Shown: positions 17,342 to 60,235 of the stretch, one piece after another
Position numbering within the stretch: the stretch's first letter is position 1
Layout of the letters: each line of letters begins with the position of its first letter
NCBI RefSeq assembly: GCF_029948125.1
Contig: NZ_JASAMB010000010.1
Coordinates: 186,001 to 250,000, forward strand
From: Catellatospora sp. KI3
Lineage (GTDB): Bacteria; Actinomycetota; Actinomycetes; Mycobacteriales; Micromonosporaceae
DNA: 64,000 bases
Direction: 5' to 3'
Program-made: the position numbers and the translations under genes
The notes under the pieces: generated by a model
Databases searched by the model: none
What the model was told of the DNA's origin: nothing
What the model saw: the letters and a program-made list of their open reading frames with translations, nothing else

Positions 17342-17408
17342 GGTGCAGTTTCGGGGAAAGTGCAGGTAAGAGCCCCAAGATTCCCGCAGTTTCCCCGAAC
17401 CTGCACCG
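17342..17408. repeat. Dispersed palindrome, copy 1
   Basis: Left arm GTGCAGTTTCGGGGAAAGTG begins at 17343. The right arm is CGCAGTTTCCCCGAACCTGC, ending near 17406. The loop contains CCCAAGATTCC, the loop type shared with copies 5 and 6. It lies in the 305-bp spacer between the divergent DGPF and amidase genes. The rest of that spacer shows only a TTGACC/TTGACG-type sequence and no gene. Confidence 0.85.
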
Positions 17409-17519
17409 CCCGCGCGTGGTGAAGGATTTTTTCGTAGCGTGAAGGTAGGGGGAAAGTATTGACCGGGCGGGGGATTGGGAGAAGGGTGGCTCGCATCGGA
17501 CATCGACAAGGAGTCATGC

Positions 17520-19490
17520 GTGTCACCCCGATCCCCCCTGCGCCGGTTGGCGCTGCTCACGACCGCCGGGCTCGCCCTCGGCACCGCCGCGGTCCCGGCC
17601 CCGGCCGGTGCCGAACCCGCCCCGCAGCCCCGTCAGGCGGCCTACCAGGCCGCGGCCGACGAGTTCGGCGTACCCGTGGACATCCTGCTGGGCGTCTCCT
17701 ATCTGGAGTCGCGCTGGGACGTGCACACCGGTGAACCCAGCACCTCCGGCGGCTTCGGCCCGATGCACCTGACCGACGCCGACTACGTGGCGGCCCTGCC
17801 CGTGCCGGAAGAGGTCGCCGTCGAGGCGCCCGAGGACGCCCGGGGCGACGACGCCCGCCCGAGGCCCGTCGGGCACCCCGCGCCGGCGCCCGCGCCCAGC
17901 GACGCCTCGCTGCGCACGCTGGCCGCCGCGGCGGAGCTGACCGGGCTGGACCCGGCGGTGCTGCGTACCGACGCGCAGGCCAACATCCGCGGCGGAGCCG
18001 CGCTGCTGTCGTCGTACCAGCGGGAACTGCAGGCGCCGGGCGGCGCCGGCAGTGACCCGGCGGCCTGGTACGGCGCGGTGGCCCGCTACTCCGGCGCCGA
18101 CGACGAGGCCGCCGCGGCCGCGTTCGCCGACGAGGTCTACGCCACGCTGGCCGAGGGCGCGGCCCGCACCACCGACGACGGCAGCGCGCTCAGCCTGCCC
18201 GCCCGCGCGGTCACCGCCGACAGGGGCTGGCTGTCCCACCTGCGCCTGCGCCGCCTGGAGCGGCCCGACGGCATCGAGTGCCCGATCGACGTCTCCTGCG
18301 AGTGGCTGCCCGCGCCGTACGAGGCCTTCGGCGACGGCGACTACGGCAACCACGACCTGGGCAACCGGCCGAGCAGCCAGCGCATCGAGTACATCGTCAT
18401 CCACGACACCGAGGCCAGCTGGGCCACCACCCTGCGGCTGGTCGACGATCCGACCTACCTGGCCTGGCACTACTCGCTGCGCTCGGTCGACGGCCACATC
18501 GCCCAGCACGTCAAGGCCAAGGACGTCGGCTGGCACGCGGGCAACTGGTACGTCAACGCCAAGTCGATCGGTTTGGAGCACGAGGGCTTCGCGGCCCAGG
18601 GCAGCTGGTACACCGAGGCGCTCTACCGCACGTCCGCGAAGCTGGTGCGGCACCTGGCGCTGCGGCTGGGCATCCCGCTGGACCGCCAGCACATCATCGG
18701 CCACGACAACGTCCCGGGCACGACCACCTCGACCGTGGCCGGGATGCACTGGGACCCGGGCCCGTACTGGGACTGGTCGCACTACTTCGACCTGCTCAAG
18801 GCGCCGTTCCGGGGCCTGCCGGACGTGCTGGCGCCGCACGCGGGCCTGGTCACCCTGGACCCGGACTTCGCCACCAACAAGCCCGCCTTCACCGGCTGCA
18901 CCGGCGCCGCGAGCAACCCGTGCCCGCTGCGCCCCAGCTCCGCCGTGATCCTGCGGACCGCCCCGGACCTGGGCGCGCCGCTGGTGCGCGACCCGGGCCG
19001 CTGCGGCACCAAGGCCAGCACCATGGTGGTCAGCGACCACTGCGCCCGCGCCTCGGCCGGGCAGACCTTCGCGGTGGCCGAGCGCTCCGGTGACTGGACC
19101 GCGATCTGGTACCTGGGCCAGAAGGCCTGGTTCCGCAACGCCGACGCCGGCCCGCGCTGGAGCATCGGCTTCGTGGTCGAGGCCAAGCCGAGCGTGGCCG
19201 CGGTCCCGGTGTACGGCCGGGCCTACCCCGAGGCGGCCGCCTACCCGGCCGGAGTGCCGGTCCAGGCGGTGAGCCCGTTCGCGCAGTACACCTTCGCGGC
19301 CGGGCAGCGCTACGCGGCCGGTCCGGTGCTGAGCCCGGAGTACTACCGGGCCAGCACCTTCGACTGGTCCTCACCCGGTGACGGCACCGTCATCCGGGGC
19401 GAGGACAGGTACGTGCAGATCCAGTTCGGACAGCGCATCGCATATGTCCGACTCGCCGACGTGGTCCTGCGCCCCTCGGTCCTGCCCTGA
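17520..19490 (+). CDS. Secreted peptidoglycan hydrolase: lysozyme-like plus N-acetylmuramoyl-L-alanine amidase
   Basis: A 656-aa protein. GTG 17520 is chosen because AAGGAG lies six nt upstream; the ATG at 17515 is out of frame. A signal peptide ends at PAGA-EP. Residues ~35-95 look like a transglycosylase (SLT/lysozyme-like) module with Glu63 in SYLESRWD and GGFGPMHLT. Residues ~285-410 are an Amidase_2/PGRP domain with zinc ligands His295 (IVIHDTE) and His395 (HIIGHDNVPG) and substrate residues in WHAGNWYVN. The C-terminal ~230 residues look like SH3-type or wall-binding modules. It probably cleaves the lactyl-Ala bond in cell-wall remodelling. A penicillin-binding protein gene follows. Confidence 0.85.
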   Translation: MSPRSPLRRLALLTTAGLALGTAAVPAPAGAEPAPQPRQAAYQAAADEFGVPVDILLGVSYLESRWDVHTGEPSTSGGFGPMHLTDADYVAALPVPEEVAVEAPEDARGDDARPRPVGHPAPAPAPSDASLRTLAAAAELTGLDPAVLRTDAQANIRGGAALLSSYQRELQAPGGAGSDPAAWYGAVARYSGADDEAAAAAFADEVYATLAEGAARTTDDGSALSLPARAVTADRGWLSHLRLRRLERPDGIECPIDVSCEWLPAPYEAFGDGDYGNHDLGNRPSSQRIEYIVIHDTEASWATTLRLVDDPTYLAWHYSLRSVDGHIAQHVKAKDVGWHAGNWYVNAKSIGLEHEGFAAQGSWYTEALYRTSAKLVRHLALRLGIPLDRQHIIGHDNVPGTTTSTVAGMHWDPGPYWDWSHYFDLLKAPFRGLPDVLAPHAGLVTLDPDFATNKPAFTGCTGAASNPCPLRPSSAVILRTAPDLGAPLVRDPGRCGTKASTMVVSDHCARASAGQTFAVAERSGDWTAIWYLGQKAWFRNADAGPRWSIGFVVEAKPSVAAVPVYGRAYPEAAAYPAGVPVQAVSPFAQYTFAAGQRYAAGPVLSPEYYRASTFDWSSPGDGTVIRGEDRYVQIQFGQRIAYVRLADVVLRPSVLP

Positions 19491-19497
19491 CGGCACG

Positions 19498-19530
19498 GCG
19501 GGTAGGGCGTCGCATCGACGCTCTACCCGC
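19498..19530 (+). terminator. Terminator hairpin after the amidase gene
   Basis: GCGGGTAG (19498-19505) pairs with CTACCCGC (19523-19530). The inner stem GCGTCG/CGACGC extends the pairing apart from one mismatch. It begins 8 bp after the stop. Confidence 0.75.
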
Positions 19531-19749
19531 CCGGTGGGTCCCATTCCGTCACGTATGTCGATCACCGATCGGCCCTGACGTGCGGGAACATGATCATTAC
19601 AGATACATCTTGGACAAATGGCGCGCACCTGAGATCCTTGTCACAGCGGAGATTCGCTGCTCAGTACGCGCGTCGTGCGGCCCGTCACGGGGGCTTGTCG
19701 CGGCAAGCCAGGCTGGGATCCGTCCCCCAGACCCGAGGCGGTGACCCCA

Positions 19750-22104
19750 ATGCGTAAGCGCCCCGTAGAAGTCCTGGTCAACCTCGCCTACCTACTGATC
19801 TGCGGCCTGCTCGCCGGAGTGGTGGTGGCTGCCGCGGTGTTCCCGGCGGCCGCCCTGTCCGGCTACGCCGCCGAGATCGGCGGCCACGCCCTGGGCCGGC
19901 TGCCCGACGACCTGATCGTCAAGCGCTCGCCCCAGATCAGCTACCTCTACGCCGCCGACGGCAAGACCCTGCTGGCCAGCATGTACGACGAGAACCGGCG
20001 CGACGTTCCGCTGTCGGAGATCCCGCTCGTGGTCCGGCAGGCGATCCTGGCCGCCGAGGACCAGGCTTTCTACAAGCACGACGGCGTCGACCTCAAGGGC
20101 ATCGCCCGCGCCTTCATCGCCAACAAGCAGGCCGGCGACGTCCAGCAGGGCGCCTCCACGCTGACCATGCAGTTCGTGCGCCTGTCCATCTCGTACTCGG
20201 CGGACACGCCCGAGGAGGTGGTGGCGGCCACCGAGGACACCGCCCAGCGCAAGCTGCGCGAGATGCGCTACGCCCTGGCCATCGAGCAGCGGCTCACCAA
20301 GGACGAGATCCTCGAGGGCTACCTGAACACCGCCTACTTCGGCAACCGGGCGTACGGCATCTTCGCCGCCGCCCACGTCTACTTCGGCAAGGAGCCCAGG
20401 GAGCTGGGCCTGGCCGAGGCGGCGTTCGTGGCGGCGCTGGTCAAGTTCCCCGGCGACTTCGACGCGATCACCGGCAGGGGCCAGGCGCTGGCCGTGGACC
20501 GGCGCAACTACGTGCTTGACGAGATGGCCCAGACCAAGTCGATCACCGACGCGCAGGCGATCGCGGCCAAGGCCGAGCCGCTGAAGGTGGTCGGCGAGTT
20601 CACCGCCAACGGCTGCGTGCAGGCCTCCAACATCAAGTGGGGCTTCTTCTGCGACTTCCTCGAGCGCTGGTGGAACCAGCAGGAGGTCTTCGGCGCCACG
20701 CCCTACGACCGGGAGCGGCAGCTGCGCTCGGGCGGCTACCGCATCATCACCTCGCTGGACCCGGCCACCCAGAGCGCCATGGACCGCAGCATCGACCGGG
20801 CGCTGAACAAGAACCCGGACCTGGACAAGAACCGGTGGCCGTGGAAGTCCGACGCGGTCATGCTCGCCGGCATCGAGCCGGGCACCGGCAAGGTGCGCGG
20901 TCTGGCGACCAACCGCAACTTCAAGCTCGACAGCAGGACCAAGCCGCAGAACGGCCCGGCGTCCAACCCGGCGCTGGCCCGGCGCGGCATCCGCGGCTCG
21001 TACCCGAACACCACGAACCCGCTGATCACCGGTAGCGCGGACCTCGGCGGCTACCAGGCCGGCTCGGTGATGAAGATCTTCACGCTGGTGTCGGCGCTGG
21101 AGAACGGCTTCCCGCTGTCGTACACGATCAACACGACCGCGCCGTACGTCTCCCGCACCCACATCACCGGCAGCCCGAGCTGCGGCGGGCGCTGGTGCCC
21201 GACCAACTCCGGCGGCAAGTCCTGGGGCGCGATGAACATGTGGACCGGCTTCGGCAACTCGGTCAACACGTACTTCGTGCCGCTGTTCGAGCGGGTCGGC
21301 GGTACCAAGGTCATCGACACGGCCAAGCGGATGGGCCTGACCTTCCACGACAACCCGGGCGTGGAGATCGACGACTACTACTGGTCCAACCACGCCGAGC
21401 TGTGGGGCCCGTTCACCCTGGGCGCCTCCGACCACACCCCGCTGCAGATCGCCAACGCGTTCGCGACCCTGGCCGCCGACGGCGTCTACTGCGAGCCGAT
21501 CCCGGTCGAGGCCATCTACAACAGCCGGGGCGAGAAGCTGGGCGTCGGCGACCCCCGCTGCGCTCAGAACCTGAAGGTCGACGTGGCGCGGGCGGCCATC
21601 GACGCGGCCCGGTGCCCGCTGGGCGACAAGTCGCTCTACGGCCGCTGCAACGGCACCACCGCCCGCGACTCCAAGGAGATCATCGGCCACCACATCGCGG
21701 GCAAGACCGGCACCACGGACAACTCCAAGTCGGTGACGCTGACCATCACCACCAGGCAGCTGGCCATCTCGGGCTTCCACACCGACCCGGACTGGGCGCA
21801 GATCAGCACGCACAAGATGTCGCACCGGGTGGTCAACCCGGCCGTGCAGTACGCGATGAAGTGGGCCATGCAGGGCAAGCAGGACATCCAGTTCAGCCGG
21901 CCCGGCAACCAGAAGATCGTGTTCGGCAACGCGCCGCCCGCGCCCGCCACCCAGACCAAGCCCAAGCCCAGCGCCAAGCCCACCCCCAGCGCCAAGCCGA
22001 AGCCGAGCGTCCAGCCCAGCCCGGTGACCCCGCCGCCTGCCGACGGCAACCCGGCGGCGCTGCCCGACGCCCTGGCCGCGCTGCCGCGCCGACTGCTGTT
22101 CTGA
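19750..22104 (+). CDS. Class A penicillin-binding protein (transglycosylase/transpeptidase)
   Basis: A 784-aa bifunctional peptidoglycan synthase. ATG 19750 is followed by a cationic start and one membrane helix (~8-33). The GT51 domain has catalytic Glu103 in AAEDQAFYKHDGVD, then GASTLTMQFVR, and EGYLNTAYFG near residue 195. The transpeptidase domain has all three penicillin-binding motifs: Ser439-x-x-Lys442 (SVMK), Ser504-Val-Asn506 and Lys652-Thr-Gly (KTGTT). The C-terminus is a Lys/Pro/Ser repeat tail typical of actinobacterial PBP1. It acts at the outer face of the membrane. The 259-bp upstream spacer has no gene; a hairpin GCTGGGATCCGTCCCCCAG lies ~40 bp before the start. Confidence 0.95.
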   Translation: MRKRPVEVLVNLAYLLICGLLAGVVVAAAVFPAAALSGYAAEIGGHALGRLPDDLIVKRSPQISYLYAADGKTLLASMYDENRRDVPLSEIPLVVRQAILAAEDQAFYKHDGVDLKGIARAFIANKQAGDVQQGASTLTMQFVRLSISYSADTPEEVVAATEDTAQRKLREMRYALAIEQRLTKDEILEGYLNTAYFGNRAYGIFAAAHVYFGKEPRELGLAEAAFVAALVKFPGDFDAITGRGQALAVDRRNYVLDEMAQTKSITDAQAIAAKAEPLKVVGEFTANGCVQASNIKWGFFCDFLERWWNQQEVFGATPYDRERQLRSGGYRIITSLDPATQSAMDRSIDRALNKNPDLDKNRWPWKSDAVMLAGIEPGTGKVRGLATNRNFKLDSRTKPQNGPASNPALARRGIRGSYPNTTNPLITGSADLGGYQAGSVMKIFTLVSALENGFPLSYTINTTAPYVSRTHITGSPSCGGRWCPTNSGGKSWGAMNMWTGFGNSVNTYFVPLFERVGGTKVIDTAKRMGLTFHDNPGVEIDDYYWSNHAELWGPFTLGASDHTPLQIANAFATLAADGVYCEPIPVEAIYNSRGEKLGVGDPRCAQNLKVDVARAAIDAARCPLGDKSLYGRCNGTTARDSKEIIGHHIAGKTGTTDNSKSVTLTITTRQLAISGFHTDPDWAQISTHKMSHRVVNPAVQYAMKWAMQGKQDIQFSRPGNQKIVFGNAPPAPATQTKPKPSAKPTPSAKPKPSVQPSPVTPPPADGNPAALPDALAALPRRLLF

Positions 22105-22162: not shown

Positions 22163-22176
22163 TGCGGTCGCGCAGG

Positions 22177-24051: not shown

Positions 24052-24118
24052 ACGATACGCTCCGCGCAAACGCGCCGTCAATAGACACCCGGCGATGGCG
24101 TGCGCGGCGTCTCTGGGC

Positions 24119-24182
24119 TGCAGTTTCAGGGAAAGTGCACGAATCTCGGCCCCCATTCCTGCACTTTCCCCGAAACTGCACC
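24119..24182. repeat. Dispersed palindrome, copy 2
   Basis: The left arm TGCAGTTTCAGGGAAAGTGC starts at 24119. The right arm CTGCACTTTCCCCGAAACTG runs to the TGCACC at ~24182. The loop (GAATCTCGGCCCCCATTC) is of the second type shared with copy 4. It lies in the 649-bp spacer between divergent GH64 and PhzE-like genes. That spacer also holds a G-rich tract (24191-24220) and a TAGACT -10-like box at ~24427. Confidence 0.9.
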
Positions 24183-40629: not shown

Positions 40630-42495
40630 ATGTCCCGGAAGGTCAGCACCCGCGCCAAGCTGCGGTACTGGTTCGACAACACGATGTCGCGCGGCACCAC
40701 CGGCCTCATCGGCTGGCTCGCCGTCGCGTCGGCGGGACTCATCGTCGTGCTCACCACGGCGATCGAGCTGGTCCAGCCCACCGAGGAGCGCGAGAACCCG
40801 CTGCGGCTGCTGTGGCAGACCTTCATCACCACGTTCAGCCTCGCCGCCCCGACCAAGGGCCGGTGGCAGGAGCTGGCGCTGTGGTTCGTGCTGGCACTGG
40901 GCGGCATCTTCATCGTCAGCGCCCTGGTCGGTCTGCTCACCAGCGGCGTCAACCGGCGCCTGGAGCAGCTGCGCAAGGGCCGCTCGCAGGTGGTCGAGCG
41001 CGACCACACGGTGGTGCTGGGCTGGTCGGACCAGATCTACACGGTCATCGGCGAGCTGGTCGAGGCCAACGCCAGCCGCCGCCGCGCCTCCGTGGTGATC
41101 CTGGCCGACCAGGACAAGGTCACCATGGAGGACCGGGTCTGGCACCGCCTCGGGGGCACCGGGCGGACCCGGCTGGTGTTCCGCACCGGCAGCCCGCTGG
41201 ACCTGAAGGACCTGGAGATGGTCAACCTCAACGAGGCCCGCTCCATCATCGTGCTCGCCCCCGACGGCGGCACCGCCGAGGACGCCGACGCGTACGTGCT
41301 CAAGACCCTGCTCGCCATCAACAAGGGCCCGGCCTTCCGCGGCCGCCCGCACCACGTGATCGCGGCGGTACGCGACAGCCGCAACCGGGCCGTGGCCAAA
41401 CTGGCCGGCGGCGACGCGATCGTGCTCGACGGCGACGACATCGGCGCCCGGCTCATCGTGCAGACGGCCCGGCAGTCCAAACTGTCGGTGGTCTACCACG
41501 ACCTGTTCGACTTCGGCGGCGACGAGATCTACATGACCGTCGAGCCGACGCTGGTCGGCAAGCAGTTCGGCCAGGCGCTGCTGGCGTACCGGGAGTGCTG
41601 CCCGCTGGGGCTGCGGCTGGCTGACGGCAAGACCGTGCTCAACCCGCCGCCCGGCACCGTGATCAGCCCCGGCGACCAGCTCGTGCTGCTGGCCCGCGAC
41701 GACTCGATGATCAAACTGGCGCCCCGGCCGCTGACCGTCGACCCGTCGGCCATCCTGCACGCCGTACGCGGCCCGGCCGCCCCGGAGAGCACCCTGATCC
41801 TGGGCTGGAACCGGCGCGCCGGCCGGATCATCGAGCAGCTCGACATCTACGTCGCCGCCGGCTCGACCGTCGACGTCGTCACCGACCGCCCCGACGCCGC
41901 GGCCGCCGTGGTCCGGCTCGCCCCTAAGCTGCGGCGGCTGCTGATCCGGTCCAAGAGCGGCGACACCCGCGACCGGGGCGTGCTGGAGACGCTCGACGTC
42001 ATGGCGTACCACAACGTGATCGTGCTGGCCGACGACGACCTCGACGCGCTCACCGCCGACTCGCGGGTCCTGGTCACCCTGCTGCACCTGCGCGACCTGC
42101 TCGCCGGGCGCGGCCCCGGCATCGTCAGCGAGATGCGCGACGACCGCGACCGGGCGCTGGCCCAGCTCACCAAGGCCGACGACTTCGTGGTCAGCGAGCA
42201 GCTGGTCAGCCTGCTGATGACGCAGATCTCGGAGAACCGCGACCTGGAGTCGGTGTTCGAGGACCTGTTCGACGCCGACGGCGCCGAGATCTACATCCGG
42301 CCCGCCAGCTACTACCTGCGCCCCGGTGCCTCGGTGACCTTCTCGACCGTGGTCGAGGCGGCGTACCGGCGCGGCGAGGTCGCCATCGGCTACCGGGTCA
42401 CCGAGCCCGGCGACAGCCACGGCGTGGTCCTCAACCCGGACAAGGAGCAGATCATGCCCCCCATCGACCGGGTGATCGTCCTGTCCAGCAGCTGA
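40630..42495 (+). CDS. CASTOR/POLLUX (DMI1)-related ion channel with RCK domains
   Basis: A 621-aa membrane protein with GAAGGA before ATG 40630. There are two membrane helices at ~24-46 (LIGWLAVASAGLIVVLTTA) and ~84-106 (LALWFVLALGGIFIVSALVG). A pore-loop-like FITTFSLAAPTKG lies between them; it is not the canonical TVGYG of potassium channels. The long cytosolic part holds two tandem RCK/Rossmann units (HTVVLGWSDQIYTVI ~125, and STLILGWNRRAGRII ~390), each with a C-terminal sub-domain. This is the layout of bacterial relatives of plant symbiosis channels CASTOR and POLLUX. Cation conduction gated by nucleotide or Ca2+ is inferred from relatives. Confidence 0.9.
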   Translation: MSRKVSTRAKLRYWFDNTMSRGTTGLIGWLAVASAGLIVVLTTAIELVQPTEERENPLRLLWQTFITTFSLAAPTKGRWQELALWFVLALGGIFIVSALVGLLTSGVNRRLEQLRKGRSQVVERDHTVVLGWSDQIYTVIGELVEANASRRRASVVILADQDKVTMEDRVWHRLGGTGRTRLVFRTGSPLDLKDLEMVNLNEARSIIVLAPDGGTAEDADAYVLKTLLAINKGPAFRGRPHHVIAAVRDSRNRAVAKLAGGDAIVLDGDDIGARLIVQTARQSKLSVVYHDLFDFGGDEIYMTVEPTLVGKQFGQALLAYRECCPLGLRLADGKTVLNPPPGTVISPGDQLVLLARDDSMIKLAPRPLTVDPSAILHAVRGPAAPESTLILGWNRRAGRIIEQLDIYVAAGSTVDVVTDRPDAAAAVVRLAPKLRRLLIRSKSGDTRDRGVLETLDVMAYHNVIVLADDDLDALTADSRVLVTLLHLRDLLAGRGPGIVSEMRDDRDRALAQLTKADDFVVSEQLVSLLMTQISENRDLESVFEDLFDADGAEIYIRPASYYLRPGASVTFSTVVEAAYRRGEVAIGYRVTEPGDSHGVVLNPDKEQIMPPIDRVIVLSSS

Positions 42496-42532: not shown

Positions 42533-42596
42533 GTGCAGTTTCGGGGAAAGTGCTGGAATCCTGACCATGATTCGTGCAGTTTCCCCGGAACTGCAC
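42533..42596. repeat. Dispersed palindrome, copy 3
   Basis: Left arm GTGCAGTTTCGGGGAAAGTG (42533-42552). Right arm GTGCAGTTTCCCCGGAACTG, ending in TGCAC at 42596. It starts 38 bp after the channel gene stop. The loop (GGAATCCTGACCATGATTC) differs from the other two loop types. The following ~175 bp before the next start hold a promoter-like region and no gene. Confidence 0.9.
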
Positions 42597-45875: not shown

Positions 45876-46430
45876 GTGAGGGCGATCGCGTACCACCACG
45901 GAGACCTGCGCCGGACCATCCTGTCCGCCGCCGTCGATGCGATCACCGAATCCGGTGTGGACGGCTGGAGCCTGCGCGAGCTGGCCCGCCGGGCGGGCGT
46001 CTCCCACGCCGCCCCCGCCCACCACTTCGGCGACCGCACCGGCCTGCTCACCGCGGTCGCCGCCGAGGGCTACCAGCTGCTGGCCGACGCCCTGCAAGCG
46101 GCCGAGCCCGGCTTCCTGGAGGCCGGACTGGCCTACATCGGCTTCGCCACCGAGCACCCGGCCCACTTCACGGTGATGTTCCAGCCCGCGCTGTACCGGC
46201 CCGACGACGACGCCGTCACCGATGCGCGCGAGCGGGCCGGCGCGCTGCTGCGGGCGGGCGCGCAGGCGGTGGCCGGCGAGCGGTCCGACGCCGAGAGCAC
46301 CGCCCTGGCGGGCTGGTCCATCGCGCACGGCTTCGCCAGCCTGTGGCTGGCCCGGGCCCTGCCCGCGCACACCCGCGCCGACGCGGTGGCCGCCGCCCGC
46401 CCGGTCCTGCGCCGCCTGGTCGAGCACTGA
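45876..46430 (+). CDS. TetR/AcrR-family transcriptional regulator
   Basis: A 184-aa repressor from GTG 45876. The N-terminal DNA-binding domain includes RRTILSAAVDAITESGVDGW and the helix-turn-helix LRELARRAGVSHAAPAHHF, followed by the family's F-G-D-R-T-G-L-L-T-A-V. The C-terminal ligand domain has the WHG-type features AHFTVMFQPALYR and AGWSIAHGFASLWLARALP. The ligand is unknown. A 7-bp inverted repeat sits directly upstream. The gene lies between two DivIVA-like genes, and palindrome copy 4 begins 9 bp after its stop codon. Confidence 0.9.
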   Translation: MRAIAYHHGDLRRTILSAAVDAITESGVDGWSLRELARRAGVSHAAPAHHFGDRTGLLTAVAAEGYQLLADALQAAEPGFLEAGLAYIGFATEHPAHFTVMFQPALYRPDDDAVTDARERAGALLRAGAQAVAGERSDAESTALAGWSIAHGFASLWLARALPAHTRADAVAAARPVLRRLVEH

Positions 46431-46438: not shown

Positions 46439-46501
46439 GTGCAGTTTCGGGGAAAGTGCGCGAATCCGAGCCCCGATTCCAACACCTTCCCCGAAACTGC
46501 A
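46439..46501. repeat. Dispersed palindrome, copy 4
   Basis: Left arm GTGCAGTTTCGGGGAAAGTG (46439-46458). Right arm AACACCTTCCCCGAAACTGC, ending at 46500. The loop GAATCCGAGCCCCGATTCC is of the copy-2 type. It starts 9 bp after the TetR stop codon. The remaining ~190 bp before the next gene contain a CATAAT -10-like box (46630-46635) and no gene. Confidence 0.9.
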
Positions 46502-46691
46502 AGATCACACGCGCGCCCGCCGCGCGTCGCAGGTGCGTAATGTCCGGATCATCCTGTTAGGGCATCGGCCAGGTGTACCGGATTCGTTGCGAACGCGCAG
46601 GCGGCTGGTACTTTCCCCCGGCCGGGACGCATAATGCCCTCCGGTGCGGCATCCGCGCCGGGCGTCGTGGTCGTATGGAGAGGTTGACGCA

Positions 46692-49953: not shown

Positions 49954-50015
49954 GTGCAGTTTCGGGGAAAGTGCACGAAAGGACGCCAAGATTCCTGCAC
50001 TTCCCCCGAAACTGC
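49954..50015. repeat. Dispersed palindrome, copy 5
   Basis: Left arm GTGCAGTTTCGGGGAAAGTG (49954-49973). Right arm CTGCACTTCCCCCGAAACTG, ending near 50014. The loop contains GCCAAGATTCC, as in copies 1 and 6. It lies 3 bp past the stop of the last gene of the carotenoid operon, so it could act as that operon's terminator or as a 3'-end stabiliser. Confidence 0.9.
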
Positions 50016-50017
50016 CC

Positions 50018-51169
50018 CTAACGACGGCGGGTGAGGAGGAGGGGGCCGACGGGGCGGAGGGCGATCGCGGCGGTGGGGGTCGGGTTGCCTGAGACCTGCG
50101 TGAGGGGGCCGTCGCACCAGGGGGTCAGGGCGGCGAGCAGCATCGCGCGGGCCAGGTGGGCGCCCAGGCAGGTGCGGCGGCCCGCGCTGAACGGCAGGAA
50201 CCCCCAGGCCGGGCGGCCGCCGTCGGCGAAGCGCTGCGGCCGGAACTCGTCCGGGTGCGGCCACAGGTCCGGATCGCGGTGGGTTAGCAGCGGCGAGTAC
50301 AGCACCAGCGTGCGCGCGCGCAGCGGCACCCCGGCCACCTCGGTGTCGGTCGAGGTGATCCGGCTGCCCAGCCACCCCGCCGGGTACAGCCGCAGGATCT
50401 CGTCCAGCACCAGCGGCAGCGCCTGCGCGGTGCGCCACTCGGGCGCGCCGGCCAGGTGCCACAGCGCCCACGCGAGGGTATGCGCCGTGGTGTCGTACCC
50501 CGCCGCCAGCGCCACCCTCGTCTCGGCGACCGCGTCGTCCATCCCGGACAGCGCGCCGGCGAGGCTGCCCTCGGGCGGGTCGGCCAGCACCCGCGCGATC
50601 GCCGCGTCCAGGCGCCGGAACAGCAGCGGCCGGGGCAGCATCGGGCCCGGCACCGGGCGCTCCAGCGGGCGCAGGAACGCCGCCAGCAGCCGCTCGTCGA
50701 GCGCGCCGCCGAAGAACGCCGCGTTCAGCATCCGCCGCACCGTGTGCCCGGCCCATTCGAGCGCCTCGAACGGGCTCTCGGGCAGCCGCGCGGCCGCCGC
50801 CTCCGCCAGGCGGGTCTGCAGGTGGGCCAGGCCGCGCGAGTGGAAGTGCGGGTTCAGCTCGCGCCGCCTCGGGTCGTGCGCGGGCACGTCGGTGTAGACG
50901 ACGCCCGCCGACAGGTACGGCGTGAGCCCGCTCAGGCTGCCCCGGCTGCGGAACGTGTCGAGGTCGCCGAGGACGGCCCGGTTCCACTCCGGCCGGTAGC
51001 CGACCACGGCGGGGCGCCACAGCCGCAGCCGGAACACCGGCCCGGTCCGGGCGCCCTCGGTGAGCAGGCGCACCGGGTCACGGGTCCACCGCCACAGGTG
51101 CCCGAACACCGGCGTGGTCGCGGGGGCGGGCAGCCGGACCGGGGTCGATCGGGCCAGTAGCGCGGTCAC
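50018..51169 (-). CDS. Cytochrome P450 of the carotenoid operon
   Basis: A 383-aa P450 from GTG 51169, overlapping the stop of the glycosyltransferase gene by 4 bp. The heme-binding loop is FSAGRRTCLG with Cys ~334. The I-helix is ALAAGYDTTAHTLAWAL and the K-helix E-x-x-R is in LDEILRLYPAGW. It lacks a membrane anchor. Short P450s of similar layout (CYP175A1 of Thermus) hydroxylate beta-carotene rings. Its place at the end of a crt operon supports oxidation of the cyclised carotenoid, which would supply the hydroxyl for glycosylation. The exact position oxidised is not predictable. A redox partner is not encoded nearby. Confidence 0.9.
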   Translation of the reverse strand: MTALLARSTPVRLPAPATTPVFGHLWRWTRDPVRLLTEGARTGPVFRLRLWRPAVVGYRPEWNRAVLGDLDTFRSRGSLSGLTPYLSAGVVYTDVPAHDPRRRELNPHFHSRGLAHLQTRLAEAAAARLPESPFEALEWAGHTVRRMLNAAFFGGALDERLLAAFLRPLERPVPGPMLPRPLLFRRLDAAIARVLADPPEGSLAGALSGMDDAVAETRVALAAGYDTTAHTLAWALWHLAGAPEWRTAQALPLVLDEILRLYPAGWLGSRITSTDTEVAGVPLRARTLVLYSPLLTHRDPDLWPHPDEFRPQRFADGGRPAWGFLPFSAGRRTCLGAHLARAMLLAALTPWCDGPLTQVSGNPTPTAAIALRPVGPLLLTRRR

Positions 51170-52895: not shown

Positions 52896-53220
52896 CGGCG
52901 CCCCGTTCGGCGGCGCGGGCCGGGCGCAGCTTCAGCCACAGCAGCAGCGTCAGCGTCATCAGCGCGAACCCGAACCCGTAGTCCTCGACCGGGATGTGCC
53001 ACGGCACCCGCAGCCCCGAGATCGCCGCGTCGTCATAGTGCACGACGGTCGCGTCCGGCCTGGTCAGCCAGCCGTCGACGGGCACCTGGAACGCGAACGC
53101 GATGGCCATGGTGAGCCAGTACCGCGCGCTGCGCAGCAGCCCGGTCCGCAGCACCCACAACTCCAGCGCCACCACCGCCAGCGGCGCCGCTATCGCGGCG
53201 ACGGTGTACTCACCGCCCAC
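52888..53220 (-). CDS. crtYd: Lycopene cyclase subunit B (CrtYd-like)
   Basis: A 110-aa integral membrane protein from GTG 53220. Three helices are visible: TVAAIAAPLAVVALELWVL, WLTMAIAFAFQVPVD, and GFGFALMTLTLLLWLKL. The cyclase signature P-V-E-D is in WHIPVEDYGFGF. Actinobacterial lycopene cyclases are heterodimers of two such ~110-130-aa proteins, and both halves are needed. The gene overlaps crtYc upstream by 11 bp and the acyltransferase downstream by 8 bp, which means strict co-translation. Whether it makes beta-, gamma- or epsilon-rings cannot be read from sequence. Confidence 0.85.
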   Translation of the reverse strand: MGGEYTVAAIAAPLAVVALELWVLRTGLLRSARYWLTMAIAFAFQVPVDGWLTRPDATVVHYDDAAISGLRVPWHIPVEDYGFGFALMTLTLLLWLKLRPARAAERGADD

Positions 53221-53605
53221 GCCCGCCCCCCGCCTGCGGTGAAAGGAAGGGACCCTTCTTATCGCTTTCCGTAGTAGAAGGGCCCCTTCCCAACCGGAGC
53301 AGGTGGCGGGTGCGGCCGAGGACCTCGTAGGTCAGCAGGGCGCAGAGGGGGACGACCACGAAGAACAGCCACTCCTCGACAGGCAGCCCGAGCAGCCGTA
53401 CGCCGGTGGTGTAGCGCGGGTCGAACCACCAGTGGCCGCGCGCGACCGCGGCCAGGTCCCACAGCACGAACAGCGCCACCACCGGGGCGAGCGCGGCCAG
53501 CAGGCGCCGCGGGCGGCGGTAGACGCGGGCGCCGAGCAGCAGCTCCAGCGGCAGGGTCACGGCCAGGCAGGCGAGCAGAATCAGCAGGTAGCGCAGCGGA
53601 TCCAT
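53210..53605 (-). CDS. crtYc: Lycopene cyclase subunit A (CrtYc-like) with repeat-derived C-terminal tail
   Basis: A 131-aa membrane protein from ATG 53605, sharing one base with the crtB stop (TGATG). Helices are LRYLLILLACLAVTLPLELL, LAALAPVVALFVLWDLAA and EWLFFVVVPLCALLTYEVLG. The cyclase signature P-V-E-E is in GLPVEEWLFF. The last ~25 residues (GPSTTESDKKGPFLSPQ) are encoded by a 46-bp palindromic repeat and look foreign to the fold. They lie after the third helix and probably do not harm function. It should act with CrtYd to cyclise lycopene. Confidence 0.85.
   Translation of the reverse strand: MDPLRYLLILLACLAVTLPLELLLGARVYRRPRRLLAALAPVVALFVLWDLAAVARGHWWFDPRYTTGVRLLGLPVEEWLFFVVVPLCALLTYEVLGRTRHLLRLGRGPSTTESDKKGPFLSPQAGGGRGR
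53245..53290. repeat. GGAAGGG-type palindrome inside the crtYc 3' coding end
   Basis: GGAAGGGACCCTTCT (53245-53259) and AGAAGGGCCCCTTCC (53276-53290) are inverted complements at 14 of 15 positions, separated by 16 nt. Each arm is itself nearly palindromic. It is translated as the C-terminal tail of CrtYc. I believe similar palindromes are frequent in Micromonosporaceae, but this window alone cannot prove it. Confidence 0.8.
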
Positions 53606-54543
53606 CACGGCACCGGCTGCGGGTCCAGCACCGGCGGCGCGGTGACGGGCGTGCCGGGCCGGGTCAGCAGGCAGCGGGCGGCCACCGCCAGGCGGCGCCG
53701 GTTGGGCACCACGGCACGGCGGGCGAACACGTCGTGGTCGGCCGCCTCCACCTCGTCGAGGATGCCCGCGTACAGGTGGTACGCGGTGCGGATGCAGGCC
53801 TGCGAGGTCGGGGCGAGCATGGTCACCCCGGGCGCGGCCAGGGCGTAGTGCTCGCGTGCGCGGGCGATCTCGAACCGGACCAGCTCGCGTACGGCTGTGG
53901 TCGACGTGCCGCGCTGGGCGCACAGGTGCAGGTCGGCGGTGCTGAGCCCGAATCGACGCAGGTCCTCCTGCGGCAGGTAGACCCGGCCCCGGTCCAGGTC
54001 CTCGGCCACGTCGCGGATGAAGTTGGTCAGCTGGAACGCCAGCCCCAGCTGCCGGGCGGGCTCGCGGGCCTGGGCCGGGTCGGCCGGGTCGAGGATGGGC
54101 AGCATCATCGTGCCGATCACCGCCGCCGAGCCCTCCATGTACTCCAGCAGCGCGTCGTAGTCGGCGTACTCGGCGATCTCCAGGTCCATGGCCATGGAGT
54201 GCAGGAACGAGGCGAAGTCGGCGCGGTCCAGGTCGAACGCGGCGATGGTGTGCAGCACCGCGGGCAGCAGCGGGTCGTCGGTGCGGGCGCCGTGCAGCCC
54301 GGCGACGAACCGGTCTGACCAGTCGCGCAGCAGCCGGGCCCGTTCGGCGGGCGGTAGCGCCTCGGTCTGGTCGACGATCTCGTCGGCGTGGCGGGTGAAG
54401 CCGTAGAGGGCGTGCACATGCGGCCGTTTCCAGGCCGGCAGCAGCCGGGTAGCCAGGTAGTAGGTGCGGCCGTGCTGTCGGTGCAGGTCCCGGCAGCGGG
54501 CGTACGCCGCCGCGAGTTCCGCCTCCGCGAATTGCGGCTCCAC
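53605..54543 (-). CDS. crtB: Phytoene synthase
   Basis: A 312-aa enzyme. I place the start at GTG 54543 because GGGGAGGG lies five nt upstream; the longer frame to 54612 would overlap the divergent crtE. The first aspartate-rich motif is D54-E-I-V-D58 in TRHADEIVDQ, and the second is RDVAEDLDRGRVYLP. These bind Mg2+ and two GGPP molecules, which are condensed head to head to phytoene. TYYLATRLLP is the usual N-terminal flap. It heads the minus-strand operon and is divergent from crtE across 62 bp. Confidence 0.95.
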   Translation of the reverse strand: MEPQFAEAELAAAYARCRDLHRQHGRTYYLATRLLPAWKRPHVHALYGFTRHADEIVDQTEALPPAERARLLRDWSDRFVAGLHGARTDDPLLPAVLHTIAAFDLDRADFASFLHSMAMDLEIAEYADYDALLEYMEGSAAVIGTMMLPILDPADPAQAREPARQLGLAFQLTNFIRDVAEDLDRGRVYLPQEDLRRFGLSTADLHLCAQRGTSTTAVRELVRFEIARAREHYALAAPGVTMLAPTSQACIRTAYHLYAGILDEVEAADHDVFARRAVVPNRRRLAVAARCLLTRPGTPVTAPPVLDPQPVP

Positions 54544-54605: not shown

Positions 54606-55760
54606 GTGGCAAACGACACCTCTTCCGCTCCTGCCTCCATGCTCGCTGCTTCCGGGCCGTTGACCTGTGAAAACGGCCATGGCGCGGCCGCCGTACCCGG
54701 TCCGGCCGAGCTGCCCGCCGCCGTCGAGCGCGTGCTGGCCGACTTCGTCCGGGAGGAGAGCGCCGCCCTGATGGCGGTCGACCCGGCCCTGCAGCCGCTG
54801 GTCTCGGCCGCCCGCGCGGCGGTGCTGGGCGGCGGCAAGCGGGTGCGTCCGCTCTTCGCGTACTGGGGCTGGCGCAGCGCCGCCGGGCCGCACGCCCCGC
54901 TGCACCGGGTCCTGCCCGCGCTGGCGGCCCTCGAACTGCTGCACGCGTTCGCGCTGGTCCACGACGACGTCATGGACCGCTCCGACACCCGGCGCGGCCG
55001 CCCCACGGCCCACCGGCAGCTGGCCGCCACGCACACCGCCCAGCGGTTGCGCGGCGACGCCGACCGGTTCGGCGACGCGGGCGCGATCCTCGTCGGCGAC
55101 CTGTGCCTGGTCTGGGCCGACCGGCTGATGGCCCGCGCCGACGTACCCGCCGCGGTGCTGGCCACCGCCCGCGCCGCCTACGACCGGATGCGGATCGAGG
55201 CCGTGGCCGGCCAGTTCCTCGACGTGCTCGGCGACTGCGCCCGCACCTGGTCGCCCGAGCGGGCCCTGCGCACCGCCCGCCTCAAGACCGCCGGCTACAC
55301 CGCCACCTGGCCGCTGCACTTCGGCGCCGCGCTGGCCGGATCCGGCGGCGCCGCCTTCGCGCACGGGCCGCTCGGCCGCGCCTTCACCGGCTACGGCCTG
55401 GCCGTCGGCGAGGCGTTCCAGCTGCGCGACGACCTGCTCGGCCTGTACGGCGAACCCGCCGTCACCGGCAAGCCCGTCGGCGACGACCTCGGCAAACCCA
55501 CCATGCTGCTGCTGCTCGCCCGGCAGCGCGCCACCCCCGCCCAGGCCGCCGAACTCGACGCGATCCTGGCCGCACCCCGCCCCGACGTGGGCCGGCTGGC
55601 CGCCGCCGTGCGGGTCACCGGCGCGGCCGAGCAGCTCAGTGACATGATCGGCGAGCGGGTCGCCGACGCTCGGGCCGCGCTGGGGTCCGCGCCGATGCCA
55701 GAGGCCGTCCGCGACGGGCTCGGCGAGCTGGCCGCCGCGGTCGCCTGGCGCGCGGCATGA
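54606..55760 (+). CDS. crtE: Polyprenyl (geranylgeranyl) diphosphate synthase
   Basis: A 384-aa enzyme from GTG 54606, 6 nt after a TAGTCT box. The first aspartate-rich motif is D120-D-V-M-D124 in LVHDDVMDRSDTRRG. The second is D275-D-L-L-G in QLRDDLLGLYG, where the last Asp of the usual DDxxD is Gly, as in many actinobacterial members. GGGKRVRP binds the IPP phosphate. It extends DMAPP or FPP with IPP to GGPP, the substrate of CrtB. A ~35-residue low-complexity N-terminal extension is unusual. Its stop overlaps the first ATG of crtI. Confidence 0.9.
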   Translation: MANDTSSAPASMLAASGPLTCENGHGAAAVPGPAELPAAVERVLADFVREESAALMAVDPALQPLVSAARAAVLGGGKRVRPLFAYWGWRSAAGPHAPLHRVLPALAALELLHAFALVHDDVMDRSDTRRGRPTAHRQLAATHTAQRLRGDADRFGDAGAILVGDLCLVWADRLMARADVPAAVLATARAAYDRMRIEAVAGQFLDVLGDCARTWSPERALRTARLKTAGYTATWPLHFGAALAGSGGAAFAHGPLGRAFTGYGLAVGEAFQLRDDLLGLYGEPAVTGKPVGDDLGKPTMLLLLARQRATPAQAAELDAILAAPRPDVGRLAAAVRVTGAAEQLSDMIGERVADARAALGSAPMPEAVRDGLGELAAAVAWRAA

Positions 55761-57259: not shown

Positions 57260-57297
57260 CCCTGCCCTCAGCCGCCCTCATCACGTCGGCAACCGCA

Positions 57298-57545
57298 GGT
57301 CTCCCGCGCTTGCGGGCGTGATGATCGCGGCTTGCGGCCACGGGGTGGACGTCGGGGCGACGTTCTGACCGCGAAGGCCGATCATGAGGCTGCACTGGTC
57401 TCGGCGCTACGCCCGCGAGCGCCGGTCTCCAGCGCCTGCGGGCGTGATGATCGCGGCCTGTGGTCACTGAGTGGACTTCAGGGCGACCTCCCGACCCCAA
57501 GCGCCGATCATCACGTCCCACCCAGGACACACGCCGATCATGAAG
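57298..57545. repeat. 126-bp imperfect tandem duplication
   Basis: GGTCTCC (57298 and 57424) and GGGCGTGATGATCGCGGC (57314 and 57440) recur at exactly 126 bp, with GCCGATCAT at 57378 and 57504. The two units are similar over ~90 bp and diverge toward their ends; GCCGATCATGA recurs again at 57533. More decayed GATGATCG-type pieces continue to ~57790. The whole 615-bp spacer from crtI to marR (57260-57874) has no convincing gene: its reading frames lack ribosome sites and family motifs. Confidence 0.75.
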
Positions 57546-57838
57546 CTGGCGCGGCGAGTTTCGGCGTGGCGCGGCCGACTCCGGTGGTGACGCGCCTGGG
57601 CCGGGAGGCCGAGGCGGTCGGTTCGGGGTTGTGGTGCAGGTGGTGACCGCTGAGGGTGATCTTGTGCGGCCGTGGCTCGATGATCGTTGGTTGCGGTCAT
57701 CGGATGGGTTCGAGCGGCCGGGTTCGACCGCAGGTGCTGACCATCGGGGCGCTGCGGACGGATGATCGCCGTTTCGGTCCTTCAACCTCGATGTTCGCTC
57801 AGGGGTGGACCCGGGCGGGTCTCGGAGCCGAGAAATAC

Positions 57839-57874
57839 TAGCCATGGCGATAGTAGCCATGTACATTAAACGGC
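57839..57874 (+). promoter_or_regulatory. marR promoter/operator region
   Basis: An AT-rich patch in GC-rich DNA. TAGCCATG occurs twice (57839-57846 and 57854-57861), 15 bp apart. GCCATGGC (57841-57848) and ATGTACAT (57859-57866) are palindromes. TACATT (57862-57867) is a -10-like box 7 nt before the GTG start. The overlap of repeats and -10 fits autoregulation by the MarR protein. Confidence 0.6.
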
Positions 57875-58345
57875 GTGAGTGAAGCGCGGATGCGGATAGC
57901 GACGCCGGGGTTCCTGGTCTGGCGGCTGTCGATGAAGCTCAGGGTCGCGGTGGATCGGGCGGTGGCGCCCCTCGGCCTCACCCATGCGCAGTACTCGGTG
58001 CTCGCGTCCCTCTACGGCATGCATCACGCGGGCGAGAGCCCCAGCCAGCGCCGCCTGGCCGACCACACCGGCCTGGAGCCGCTCTACATCTCCAAACTGG
58101 CCCGCGGCCTCGAATCCGCCGGGCTGGTGGACCGCGCCCCCGACCCCGCCGACAGCCGCGCCGTGCGGCTGAACCTGACCGATCAGGGTCGCGACGTGAC
58201 CGCCAGGGCCGTCGTCGTCGTCCGCGACCTCCAGGAACGACTGCTCGCCCCGCTGGGCGGGCTTGCGGGCGAGCGCGCCGCCGCGTTCGTACGCGACCTG
58301 AATCTCCTGCTCGACGTGCAGTTGGACCCGAAGGAGCAAGCATGA
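57875..58345 (+). CDS. MarR-family transcriptional regulator
   Basis: A 156-aa winged-helix protein from GTG 57875 (leaderless-type promoter). Helix 1 and the dimer region are FLVWRLSMKLRVAVDRAVAP. The recognition unit is SQRRLADHTGLEPLYISKLA followed by RGLESAGLV. The wing carries D-R-A-P-D-P-A-D-S-R-A-V, the MarR hallmark with the conserved Asp-x-Arg. It is 615 bp downstream of crtI. In Corynebacterium, a MarR-type protein (CrtR) represses the carotenoid operon, so the same role is a reasonable hypothesis here. It overlaps the next gene by 4 bp. Confidence 0.85.
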   Translation: MSEARMRIATPGFLVWRLSMKLRVAVDRAVAPLGLTHAQYSVLASLYGMHHAGESPSQRRLADHTGLEPLYISKLARGLESAGLVDRAPDPADSRAVRLNLTDQGRDVTARAVVVVRDLQERLLAPLGGLAGERAAAFVRDLNLLLDVQLDPKEQA

Positions 58346-58767
58346 CCACGCTGAATGGACAGATCCTCGGCCAGGCCGAACGGGCCACCCGTGCCGTCCT
58401 CGACCGGCTGCTCGACCGGGCCGGAACCGACTTCCACGGCTGGGTGCTGCTCAACCTGACCGCGGACGGCGCCGAGCCGGTGCCGCATGCGGCGCTGGCT
58501 GCCCGGATGGCCGCCGGACTCAAGATCGGCGAGGTGGAGGCCGCCGCCGTGGTCGAGCGGCTGGTCGGCGCGGGGCTGATCGCGGGCGGCGGGGACCGGG
58601 GTCTGGCCCAGACCGCCGCGGGTGCCGAACTGTACCGGCGGATCGGCGCGGGCGTCGCCGAGGTCACCACCCGGCTCTACGGCGGCATCCCGGCCGACGA
58701 GCTGGCCGTCGCGGGGCGGGTGCTGCGGCTGGTCACCGTACGTGCGGACGCGGAGCTGGCGGCCTGA
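58342..58767 (+). CDS. Winged-helix-like protein coupled to the MarR regulator
   Basis: A 141-aa protein whose ATG 58342 overlaps the marR stop (ATGA). The layout is MarR-like: an N-terminal dimer helix (LGQAERATRAVLDRLLDRAG), then HGWVLLNLTADG, a helix-turn-helix-like ARMAAGLKIGEVEAAAVV, ERLVGAGLIAGGG as helix 4 into the wing, and a C-terminal helix pair. The wing is short and lacks the usual basic residues, so DNA binding may be weak. It may dimerise with the preceding MarR protein or sense a ligand. No direct family assignment is possible. Confidence 0.7.
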   Translation: MTTLNGQILGQAERATRAVLDRLLDRAGTDFHGWVLLNLTADGAEPVPHAALAARMAAGLKIGEVEAAAVVERLVGAGLIAGGGDRGLAQTAAGAELYRRIGAGVAEVTTRLYGGIPADELAVAGRVLRLVTVRADAELAA

Positions 58768-58886
58768 CCGGACGGTCACCCGCGCGGGGGTCAATCGCCC
58801 TCGCGCGCGTGACAGTCCGGCGTCCAGGCATTGTGCGTACACCACTTAACGGGCATTTTGGACTCCACCGGCTGAGGGGGTCTGAG

Positions 58887-60134
58887 ATGCGGGCACGGCA
58901 GTCACTGGCGGCGGGCGCGGCGATCCTGGTCGCGTTCGCCTGGGCGCAGGCCGGGGCGGCACCGGTCGGCCGGGCGGCGGCGCTGCCCGGCGCGGCGACA
59001 CCGCCGCTGGTCGCGTACTCGGGGCGGGCGTTCGGCGGCGACTGGCAGTCGTATGGCACGGGCGTGTTCGACAACGCCCGGGGCGAACTGGGCACCGTGG
59101 GGAACGACGCGATCAGCTCGCTGCGGGTGGCGCCCGGCTACCGGGCCGTGGGCTGCGTCGAGGGCGGCGGAGAAGGCCGGGTCGACGAGGGCGACCTCGG
59201 CCGGTGCCGCATCTTCGGGCCGGGCGGCCACGACTCCGTGGGCAGGGACCTCGACGACAAGATCTCCCTGCTGGCCGTGTACGGCGGCCCCGCCCGCCAC
59301 GCGGGCGCCACCGCGTACCAGGGGCCGGGGTTCACCGGCGCGGACCTGCCGCTGGGGCCTGGCGGGTTCGAGGCGGCCACGGGCGCGCTCGACCGGCTCG
59401 GGGCGGCGATCTCCTCGCTGGCCGTCGAGGACGGCTACCGGGTGGTGGCCTGCGACCGCGACAGCGTGTCGGCCGGCAGCGACGCCGACCTCGGGCTGTG
59501 CCGCCTGTTCGGACCCGGCCGGCACAGCGGCGTCGGCGACGACCTGCAGCGCAGGATCTCGCTGGTCGCGGTCGGCGGTCCCGCGCTGACCGCGACCAGC
59601 GACGCCGGTATGGCCGGACTCCGCCAGACCTTCGGCCCCGGCATCCACCAGGCGCTGGCCGGCGAGCTGTCCCAGGTCGGCAACGACGCGGTCACCGCAC
59701 TGCGCGTGGCCGACGGCTACCGCGTGATCGCGTGCGCGGACGACCGCACCGACCTCATCGGACAGGGCGACCTCGGCCTGTGCCGCCTGTACGGCCCCGG
59801 CGACCGGGACCTGTCCGACGGCCGCCTCAACGACGCCGTGTCCCTGCTCGCGGTCTACCCGGGCGGCGCGAGCGGCGACTCCGTCCTGGCCTACGCCGAC
59901 CGCGACCTCAACGGCGCCTCCGCCGCGTTCGGCCCCGGCTGGTACCCGGCCGCCGACCTCGGCAAGGTCGGCAACGACACCGCCAGCTCCCTCAAGGTCC
60001 GCTCCGGCCGCGCCGTCGCCTGCGAACACGACCGCGAGCGGCTGGGCACCTGCCGCCTGTACACCGTGGGCGACCACCCCTTCGTAGGCACCTCCCTCAA
60101 CGACCGCATCTCCCTGCTCGCCGTCGCCCCCTGA
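58887..60134 (+). CDS. Secreted beta/gamma-crystallin-like protein with eight Greek-key-type motifs
   Basis: A 415-aa exported protein from ATG 58887 (GAGGGGG upstream). A signal peptide ends near AGA-AP. The mature part is four ~90-residue units, each with two motifs of the form N/D-D-x-x-S/T-S/L: NDAISSL and DDKISLL, AAISSL and RRISLV, NDAVTAL and NDAVSLL, NDTASSL and NDRISLL. Each unit also has GYR-V/A-x-x-C and C-R-x-F/Y-G-P-G. The acidic pairs plus Ser are the Ca2+ sites of microbial beta/gamma-crystallins; the second unit has lost them, so calcium affinity may differ between domains. Cysteine pairs may form disulfides. The biological role is unknown. Confidence 0.8.
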   Translation: MRARQSLAAGAAILVAFAWAQAGAAPVGRAAALPGAATPPLVAYSGRAFGGDWQSYGTGVFDNARGELGTVGNDAISSLRVAPGYRAVGCVEGGGEGRVDEGDLGRCRIFGPGGHDSVGRDLDDKISLLAVYGGPARHAGATAYQGPGFTGADLPLGPGGFEAATGALDRLGAAISSLAVEDGYRVVACDRDSVSAGSDADLGLCRLFGPGRHSGVGDDLQRRISLVAVGGPALTATSDAGMAGLRQTFGPGIHQALAGELSQVGNDAVTALRVADGYRVIACADDRTDLIGQGDLGLCRLYGPGDRDLSDGRLNDAVSLLAVYPGGASGDSVLAYADRDLNGASAAFGPGWYPAADLGKVGNDTASSLKVRSGRAVACEHDRERLGTCRLYTVGDHPFVGTSLNDRISLLAVAP

Positions 60135-60171
60135 CCGGGACGTGCGGCCCCGCAGCCCGCGTCGCGGGTTC

Positions 60172-60235
60172 GTGCAGTTTCGGGGAAAGTGCAGGAAAGG
60201 CGCCCAAGATTCCTGCACTTTCCCCGAAACTGCAG
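60172..60235. repeat. Dispersed palindrome, copy 6
   Basis: Left arm GTGCAGTTTCGGGGAAAGTG (60172-60191). Right arm CTGCACTTTCCCCGAAACTG, ending in TGCAG at 60235. The loop (GCGCCCAAGATTC) is nearly identical to that of copy 5. It is the least decayed copy and starts 38 bp after the crystallin-like gene stop. Confidence 0.9.

Follow-up and report, generated by a model that had tools for sequence, protein, structure and literature searches.

Among described bacterial repeats, the closest in form to the element reported here are the REPINs (doublets of repetitive extragenic palindromes, REPs, that form hairpins). The element, which we call family A, is an intergenic two-arm palindrome first noticed in six copies within a 64,000-nucleotide stretch of the 8.2 Mb genome of the soil bacterium Catellatospora sp. 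KI3 (genus in Micromonosporaceae; genome G000), and "the window" hereafter means that whole stretch (G000:C2:186001-250000). REPINs, like family A, consist of two inverted short palindromic units that stand a set distance apart, the spacer between them being less conserved, and they are likewise extragenic, present in many copies and long persistent (PMC3116915, PMC8049555). They differ in that they come with REP-associated tyrosine transposases (RAYTs; PMC8049555), whereas G000 has no RAYT match, and in that compensatory changes are called common in them (PMC3116915), whereas the spacer of family A does not co-vary. A second class, the CGTC-tagged REPs, has 8-9-bp stems with short loops and occurs mostly as head-to-head dimers with no transposase-gene association (PMC3733652), and the transposase-free head-to-head dimers resemble family A. 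In contrast, visual inspection of the oriented logo, made from 65 family A copies with 31-bp flanks, showed neither the CGTC/TGTC/CCTC end nor the CCA tail of that class, nor any GTAG or CGTC tag at the unit end. The terms Actinobacteria, Streptomyces and Frankia are absent from the main text of PMC3733652.

Two further systems share features with family A. Paired inverted DNA uptake signals in Neisseria and Pasteurellaceae act as terminators and are enriched between convergent genes (PMC1852404); they share with family A the dispersed repeat, the inverted pairing and the convergent enrichment. However, an uptake signal is a single 9-11-nt word whose hairpin copies lie within 10 nt of one another (PMC1852404), whereas family A has 20-21-bp arms, a fixed 22-bp gap and other, unrelated families coexisting with it. 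Streptomyces terminators form long, stable hairpins whose stems are followed by few U's, and the parts of PMC12207403 at hand describe no repeat family shared among them, whereas family A recurs at hundreds of places. Within the available parts of the literature on Catellatospora repeats and Micromonosporaceae palindromes we recognised no description of the family A element.

The six window palindromes exist essentially as the sequence-only reading had proposed, their in-register 64-mers sitting within 1-2 bp of the coordinates it gave. They are listed here with their state at the corresponding sites of two relatives, genomes G005 and G009:

Copy 1, 17343..17406, minus strand: two-arm palindrome in a divergent spacer; site occupied in G005 and G009, the G009 loop agreeing better when flipped
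Copy 2, 24118..24181, plus strand: palindrome in a divergent spacer; site occupied in G005 and G009
Copy 3, 42533..42596, plus strand (orientation weakly assigned): 37 bases past the stop of a plus-strand gene ending at 42495; site occupied in G005 (spacing 41) and in G009
Copy 4, 46439..46502, plus strand (orientation weakly assigned): 8 bases past a stop at 46430; no element found between the flanking anchors of either G005 or G009, where longer unrelated DNA lies instead
Copy 5, 49954..50017, minus strand: adjoins (0 bases) the stop, at 50018, of a minus-strand gene; site occupied in G005 and G009
Copy 6, 60172..60235, minus strand: near-perfect palindrome 37 bases past a stop at 60134; site occupied in G005 and G009

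Genes were called with our own simple codon-usage caller, so that gene start positions are approximate; by these calls all six copies are intergenic, two in divergent spacers and four at or shortly past a stop codon, again as first described. The arm sequence matches the window 12 times at ≤3 mismatches and did not match at all in 100 shuffles. RNA folding of the six copies, one strand each, gave energies of −34 to −47 kcal/mol (z −6.9 to −10.6). An Rfam search of the window at gathering scores returned 0 matches, and a known structured RNA was set aside on that result.

Far from being confined to the window, family A is abundant in KI3 and widespread in its genus. The arm at ≤2 mismatches matches G000 281 and 289 times on the two strands, the 1.087 Mb of G000 DNA examined contains 65 full copies, and extrapolation from three counts gives 294-317, or about 300, copies in the genome. 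Many further copies thus exist, and the two outcomes named beforehand as counting against the family, few copies and no arm pairing between them, were not what we saw. All 11 Catellatospora genomes carry the arm, with 25 to 570 matches per genome (both strands summed), while the same search of 30 genomes outside the genus gave a single arm match in each of three. Strict pairs, with exact inner arms, occur in 11 of 300 Micromonosporaceae genomes; these are the 11 Catellatospora, and the 289 others have none. Phage and plasmid collections held no match to copy 6 and viral contigs none to the strict pattern, and spread by phages or plasmids was set aside accordingly. Two genomes have long stretches free of strict copies: 2.03 Mb in G008 (G008:C1:4962742-6994426, with 50 copies on the chromosome), a gap as large as which arose in 1 of 20,000 random draws, and 2.58 Mb in G003, the largest gap among its 25 copies, reached in 126 of 20,000 draws.

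Each copy consists of two inverted 20-21-bp arms flanking a loop of variable sequence and locked length. With a pattern permitting loops of 10-38 bp, the loop is exactly 22 bp in 649 of 657 pairs genus-wide, and all 65 paired copies in the G000 DNA examined have an arm spacing of 42 bp, which is the REPIN arrangement of two inverted units at a conserved distance. Two apparently lone G000 arms do, by eye, have a partner, in copies where one arm carries a one-base indel. A spacing of 42 also holds elsewhere (4/5 and 11/12 in G005, 7/7 and 16/17 in G009, 5/5 in G008, 1/1 in G002), and among the copies listed for G002, G003 and G008 loop length is kept although the loop sequences appear to have no relation to G000's. 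An array of three arms in G008 (L143:989-1091, G008:C1:7880989-7881091) has spacings of 41 and 42 bp, the first pair direct and the second inverted. The arm has some likeness to parS/Noc-type sites, which are built of TTTC..GAAA half-sites; the half-site gap is 3 rather than 4, and the likeness was set aside.

Placement relative to genes is biased. Sixty-four of the 65 G000 copies are intergenic, with 25 in convergent, 30 in tandem and 9 in divergent gaps, against 17, 52 and 31% of available positions (chi-square p 4.6e-6). Within tandem gaps 28 of 30 copies lie closer to the upstream stop (p 8.7e-7), and the orientation of the element is independent of that of the neighbouring gene (14 same, 16 opposite). 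The stable hairpin after a stop codon that characterises an intrinsic terminator is present, though not at the nine divergent copies. On these data, and on the arm covariation and the behaviour of other hairpins described below, we tentatively favour, while giving it somewhat less than an even chance, the reading that family A is a bidirectional, terminator-like 3'-end hairpin that is interchangeable with other such families and that spreads in REPIN-like fashion by a factor other than a RAYT. Each 62-64-bp cassette, once transcribed, would form a long RNA hairpin, which its palindromic sequence leads one to expect from either strand, and a cassette lying past a stop codon, above all between convergent genes, would act as a terminator-like hairpin for both. 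Family A would then be the most numerous in a set of six or more unrelated palindrome families that replace the genes' own terminator hairpins, and the cassettes would disperse as non-autonomous two-arm repeats of REPIN-like geometry whose mover is not a recognisable RAYT. Placement, two-strand symmetry, arm covariation and scarcity of other hairpins all fit a bidirectional terminator-like hairpin. Copy number, geometry, 3'-end placement, turnover of sites and the shortage of other hairpins beside a family are shown by the data, and the ending or protection of transcripts, the interchangeability of the families and an enzyme as their mover are inferred from them.

The loop has a direction. A likelihood fit, made with no shuffled control, favours one orientation by more than 2 log units in 79 of 82 copies and gives the oriented consensus TGCAGTTTCGGGGAAASTGC-WSGAATCTTGGSCCNNATTCSW-GCASTTTCCCCGAAACTGCA, which means that the loop classes distinguished earlier are mostly one loop seen in two orientations. 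In the window CCAAGATTC is the reverse complement of GAATCTTGG, so that the loop runs one way in copies 1, 5 and 6 and the other way in copies 2-4 (weakly assigned in copies 3 and 4). The recurrence of two loops that had been reported is confirmed, but the division into separate loop subfamilies that had been drawn from it largely dissolves.

The earlier suggestion of compensatory arm changes stands for the outer arms and not for the palindrome as a whole. Over the outer 19 pairs with position 17 omitted, a column set picked after the data were seen, there are five compensated pairs against 1.5 expected, a figure reached in 1 of 500 shuffles. Over all 28 column pairs, standard pairs make up 84.8%, against 85.7% in shuffles, of which 492 in 500 equalled or exceeded the real figure; the cause is a lack of covariation in the loop and at position pairs 17/46 and 22/41. 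The loops of G002 and G003 likewise show no covariation, in a comparison that left out the G002 copy with a 21-bp loop and the G003 copy with a 23-bp loop. Pairing inside each arm is at shuffle level, which led us to reject two small hairpins per copy. In some G000 copies the palindrome extends a few bases past the arms, several tests of inverted matches between the flanks giving p 0.01-0.05.

These same data bear on whether family A is recognised as double-stranded DNA, for example by a nucleoid or supercoiling protein binding dyads about four helical turns apart. A locked 42-bp arm distance around a free loop sequence is what such a site would have, and although a second arm in direct orientation is rare (25 hits), 22 of these retain the 22-bp gap. 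Positions 22/41 moreover avoid pairing in G000 (19 of 65 copies, against 31.8 expected), but this avoidance is weak in G002 and absent in G003. The outer arms, however, co-vary as a hairpin would, and several unrelated families favour the same places, which one binding protein would not explain. We regard a DNA binding site as improbable.

The preferred reading of family A as one of several exchangeable gene-end hairpins draws on five further palindrome families, B-F, found by comparing G000 gaps with one another (G000:C1, L091-L130) and unrelated in sequence to family A. Arm spacing is mostly fixed in B, C, D and E where both arms were found. The families are listed below with the gaps that contain them, out of 109 convergent, 305 tandem and 168 divergent gaps of at least 64 bp:

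Family A: 25 convergent, 30 tandem and 9 divergent gaps
Family B, arms GAAGGGNCCCTTC: 30 of 32 C1 pairs with spacing 34; 17 convergent, 16 tandem and 2 divergent gaps
Family C, arms TTGACGCTGGCCTATC: spacing 47 in 29 of 30 on C1, its two C2 pairs having 37 and 48; 24 convergent, 9 tandem and 1 divergent gap
Family D, arms GATCATGAACTTATG: 23 arm hits, 8 of them with a found partner, all 8 at spacing 46; 4 convergent, 16 tandem and 4 divergent gaps
Family E, arms AAGTTGCCGGGCAATCGGGC: spacing 39 in 8 of 10; 3 convergent, 5 tandem and 1 divergent gap
Family F, arms GATCGCCGCCTGCGGTCAGAAC: no fixed geometry detected, with a partner for 4 of 22; 10 convergent, 15 tandem and 1 divergent gap

The B-F patterns gave 323 noncoding and 37 coding hits, against 5 and 22 for a reversed-pattern control. 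Families B, C and F favour gene 3' ends as A does, and of the gaps counted above 73 convergent, 80 tandem and 18 divergent ones hold at least one of the six families. One family B palindrome, with two GAAGGGNCCCTTC arms, lies in the window at 53243-53292, inside a short predicted minus-strand gene call (53210-53608).

Gaps that carry a family hold fewer other hairpins. In gaps of 64-400 bp, with any other inverted repeat scored against 10 shuffles and with 31 convergent and 11 tandem family gaps omitted as too short once masked, another inverted repeat was present in 9 of the 35 family-bearing convergent gaps (residual length 90 bp) and in 22 of the 30 that lack a family (119 bp; p 1.7e-4). 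The tandem gaps, whose residual lengths are nearly equal (146 bp with a family, 151 bp without), gave 9 of 48 against 92 of 205 (p 9e-4), and the divergent gaps showed no difference (1 of 15 against 15 of 130). Where a copy of G000 is missing in G005 or G009, another family occupies the same gap in 13 of 25 scored comparisons, a count that has no matched background and includes one G009 region twice; 25 of 29 absent comparisons were scored, the other four having target gaps of more than 1,200 bp. Among convergent gaps of at least 150 bp, 41 hold one family or more, against 35.8 under independence (p 0.009). Of the 25 convergent gaps with family A, 6 also hold another family where 14.0 would be expected (Fisher p 0.003), an avoidance that arises mostly from lack of room; strict exclusion between families was rejected, as it disappears in gaps roomy enough for two.

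Several results weigh against the terminator-like, interchangeable hairpin that we favour. Nine of the 65 copies lie in divergent gaps, where no gene ends. None of the 65 has a U-tract (at least 5 T in an 8-nt window beside the stem, either side), and a strict U-tract terminator is rejected on that count. The exact 22-bp loop and fixed stem sequence are not needed by a terminator. Family D has no lean toward 3' ends and family E is too rare to judge, the mutual avoidance of A and the other families fades with gap length (p 0.066 at ≥150 bp, 0.35 at 200 and 0.88 at 250), and avoidance in tandem gaps is not significant. At G000:C1:509046, finally, a copy stands beside an ordinary hairpin that is kept in all three species.

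The absent U-tract would suit a 3' hairpin whose role is to protect or process mRNA ends and not to stop transcription, an explanation that shares its placement and hairpin evidence with the terminator reading. Enrichment is nevertheless highest in convergent gaps, where stopping read-through matters most, and while the present evidence does not separate protection from termination we consider protection alone quite improbable.

Family A sites are gained and lost between species, as was seen at 34 G000 sites compared with G005 (16 present, 15 absent, 3 without anchors) and G009 (18 present, 14 absent, 2 without anchors, one of which a separate comparison shows to be occupied). Thirty sites were scored in both relatives: 9 are common to all three genomes, 6 are shared with G005 only, 8 with G009 only and 7 with neither. 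At shared sites, excluding three present sites with a spacing other than 42, the arms of both G005 and G009 are 92% identical to those of G000 and the loops 80 and 68%, respectively, compared with 87 and 85% for third codon positions and 44 and 40% for the 20 bp beside the element. Since the arms exceed both third codon positions and flanks, the figures suggest that arms are constrained after insertion. The G009 loops, which diverge beyond third codon positions, suggest that elements may have been replaced, or have inserted more than once, at the same gene ends.

Copy orientation agrees with G000 at 14 of 14 sites in G005, and the G009 loop fits better flipped at 5 of 17 shared sites. At the G009 sites matching G000:C1:288413 and 452267 the flipped loop agrees at 19 of 22 positions, and perhaps the element was inverted in place at these two; 45 of 1,088 unrelated loop comparisons also reach 19 of 22. 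Both G000 and G005 have one copy in frame within a major facilitator superfamily (MFS) transporter gene near recA. No arm at ≤5 mismatches was found in the stretches fetched for this gene from the other nine species, and a variable linker in the gene makes the exact joint unreadable. In G008 a DUF58 gene contains the second intragenic copy (L145:1449-2495, G008:C1:7921449-7922495).

The REP- or MITE-style (miniature inverted-repeat transposable element) mobility proposed from the window is supported by gain and loss, but there is no Y1/RAYT gene in G000 and no consistent target-site duplication. The REP-associated tyrosine transposase that had been suggested as worth seeking was not found: no match to PF01797 (Y1/RAYT) was found in G000, G002, G005, G007 or G009, among them the three genomes with the most family A copies, whereas 5 of 14 control genomes match and the six other genus members have one to three matches each. 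Of 10 Y1 matches in relatives, 8 loci of 3.2-3.4 kb were examined (7 of 9 in the genus and 1 outside it), and none has an arm at ≤4 mismatches. A RAYT-driven REP was accordingly set aside for G000, a RAYT since lost being possible; E. coli genomes without a RAYT retain REPINs, in lower number (PMC8049555), so that an absent RAYT does not by itself exclude REPIN-like mobility. Of 28 direct-repeat tests beside the 65 copies none at 4-5 or 8-9 bp rose above shuffles and two at 3 bp reached p of about 0.05, and a MITE of a DDE transposon was set aside for want of a consistent duplication. By eye, the genes that separate copies closer than 4.5 kb to one another look ordinary, no genome-wide search for a full-length parent element having been made.

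A rival reading is a purely selfish origin, in which family A is a REPIN-like non-autonomous mobile repeat, its 3'-end bias reflects only the removal by selection of insertions elsewhere and a trans-acting enzyme keeps the arms and their spacing. Two inverted dyad arms at a locked distance around a variable spacer match the description of REPINs (PMC3116915). The range of arm number across the genus, the failure of about half of the 34 sites to be shared with G005 or with G009, the in-frame copy in the MFS gene and the survival of REPINs in E. coli lacking a RAYT are all as a selfish repeat would have them. But the lack of PF01797 in the five genomes named above, the lack of near-identical copies (the closest pair among the 65 in G000 is 59/62 identical) and the lack of a consistent target duplication speak against it, nor does it predict that copy-bearing gaps should be without a hairpin of their own. 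We think it unlikely on balance, though a serious contender. The terminator-like and the dispersing-repeat readings are compatible and can both be true, and the locked spacing, which termination does not explain, points to a trans-acting reader of both arms.

A broader proposal, which we consider possible but doubtful, is that Catellatospora draws on a standing set of six or more mobile hairpin cassettes, unrelated to one another and mostly of fixed geometry, serving as exchangeable bidirectional gene-end signals, with families replacing one another at the same gene end and with a non-RAYT enzyme that reads the arm-to-arm distance as their mover. If this were so, the gene-end signals of the genus would be reused mobile parts rather than separate inventions for each gene, and terminators could be gained, swapped and traced across species like transposons. 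It would also be an example from nature of repeats that look selfish but are retained for the job they do, which is an open question for REPINs, and would raise the matter of what moves two-arm repeats where no RAYT is found. Such compact symmetric hairpins might also serve as bidirectional terminators for GC-rich hosts.

Two other features were noted in G000 DNA. A repeat of the form CTGGACTGAGGAGCGTGACC...GGCAGCGACGAGGGAAGAC occurs within longer inverted repeats at G000:C1:199378, 637384, 652021, 660472, 733619, 734203 and 734323 and may represent a family of hairpins or of structured RNAs; Rfam searches of two stretches, L100 and L123, gave no match to it. A Guanidine-III riboswitch match lies at L094:8984-9042.

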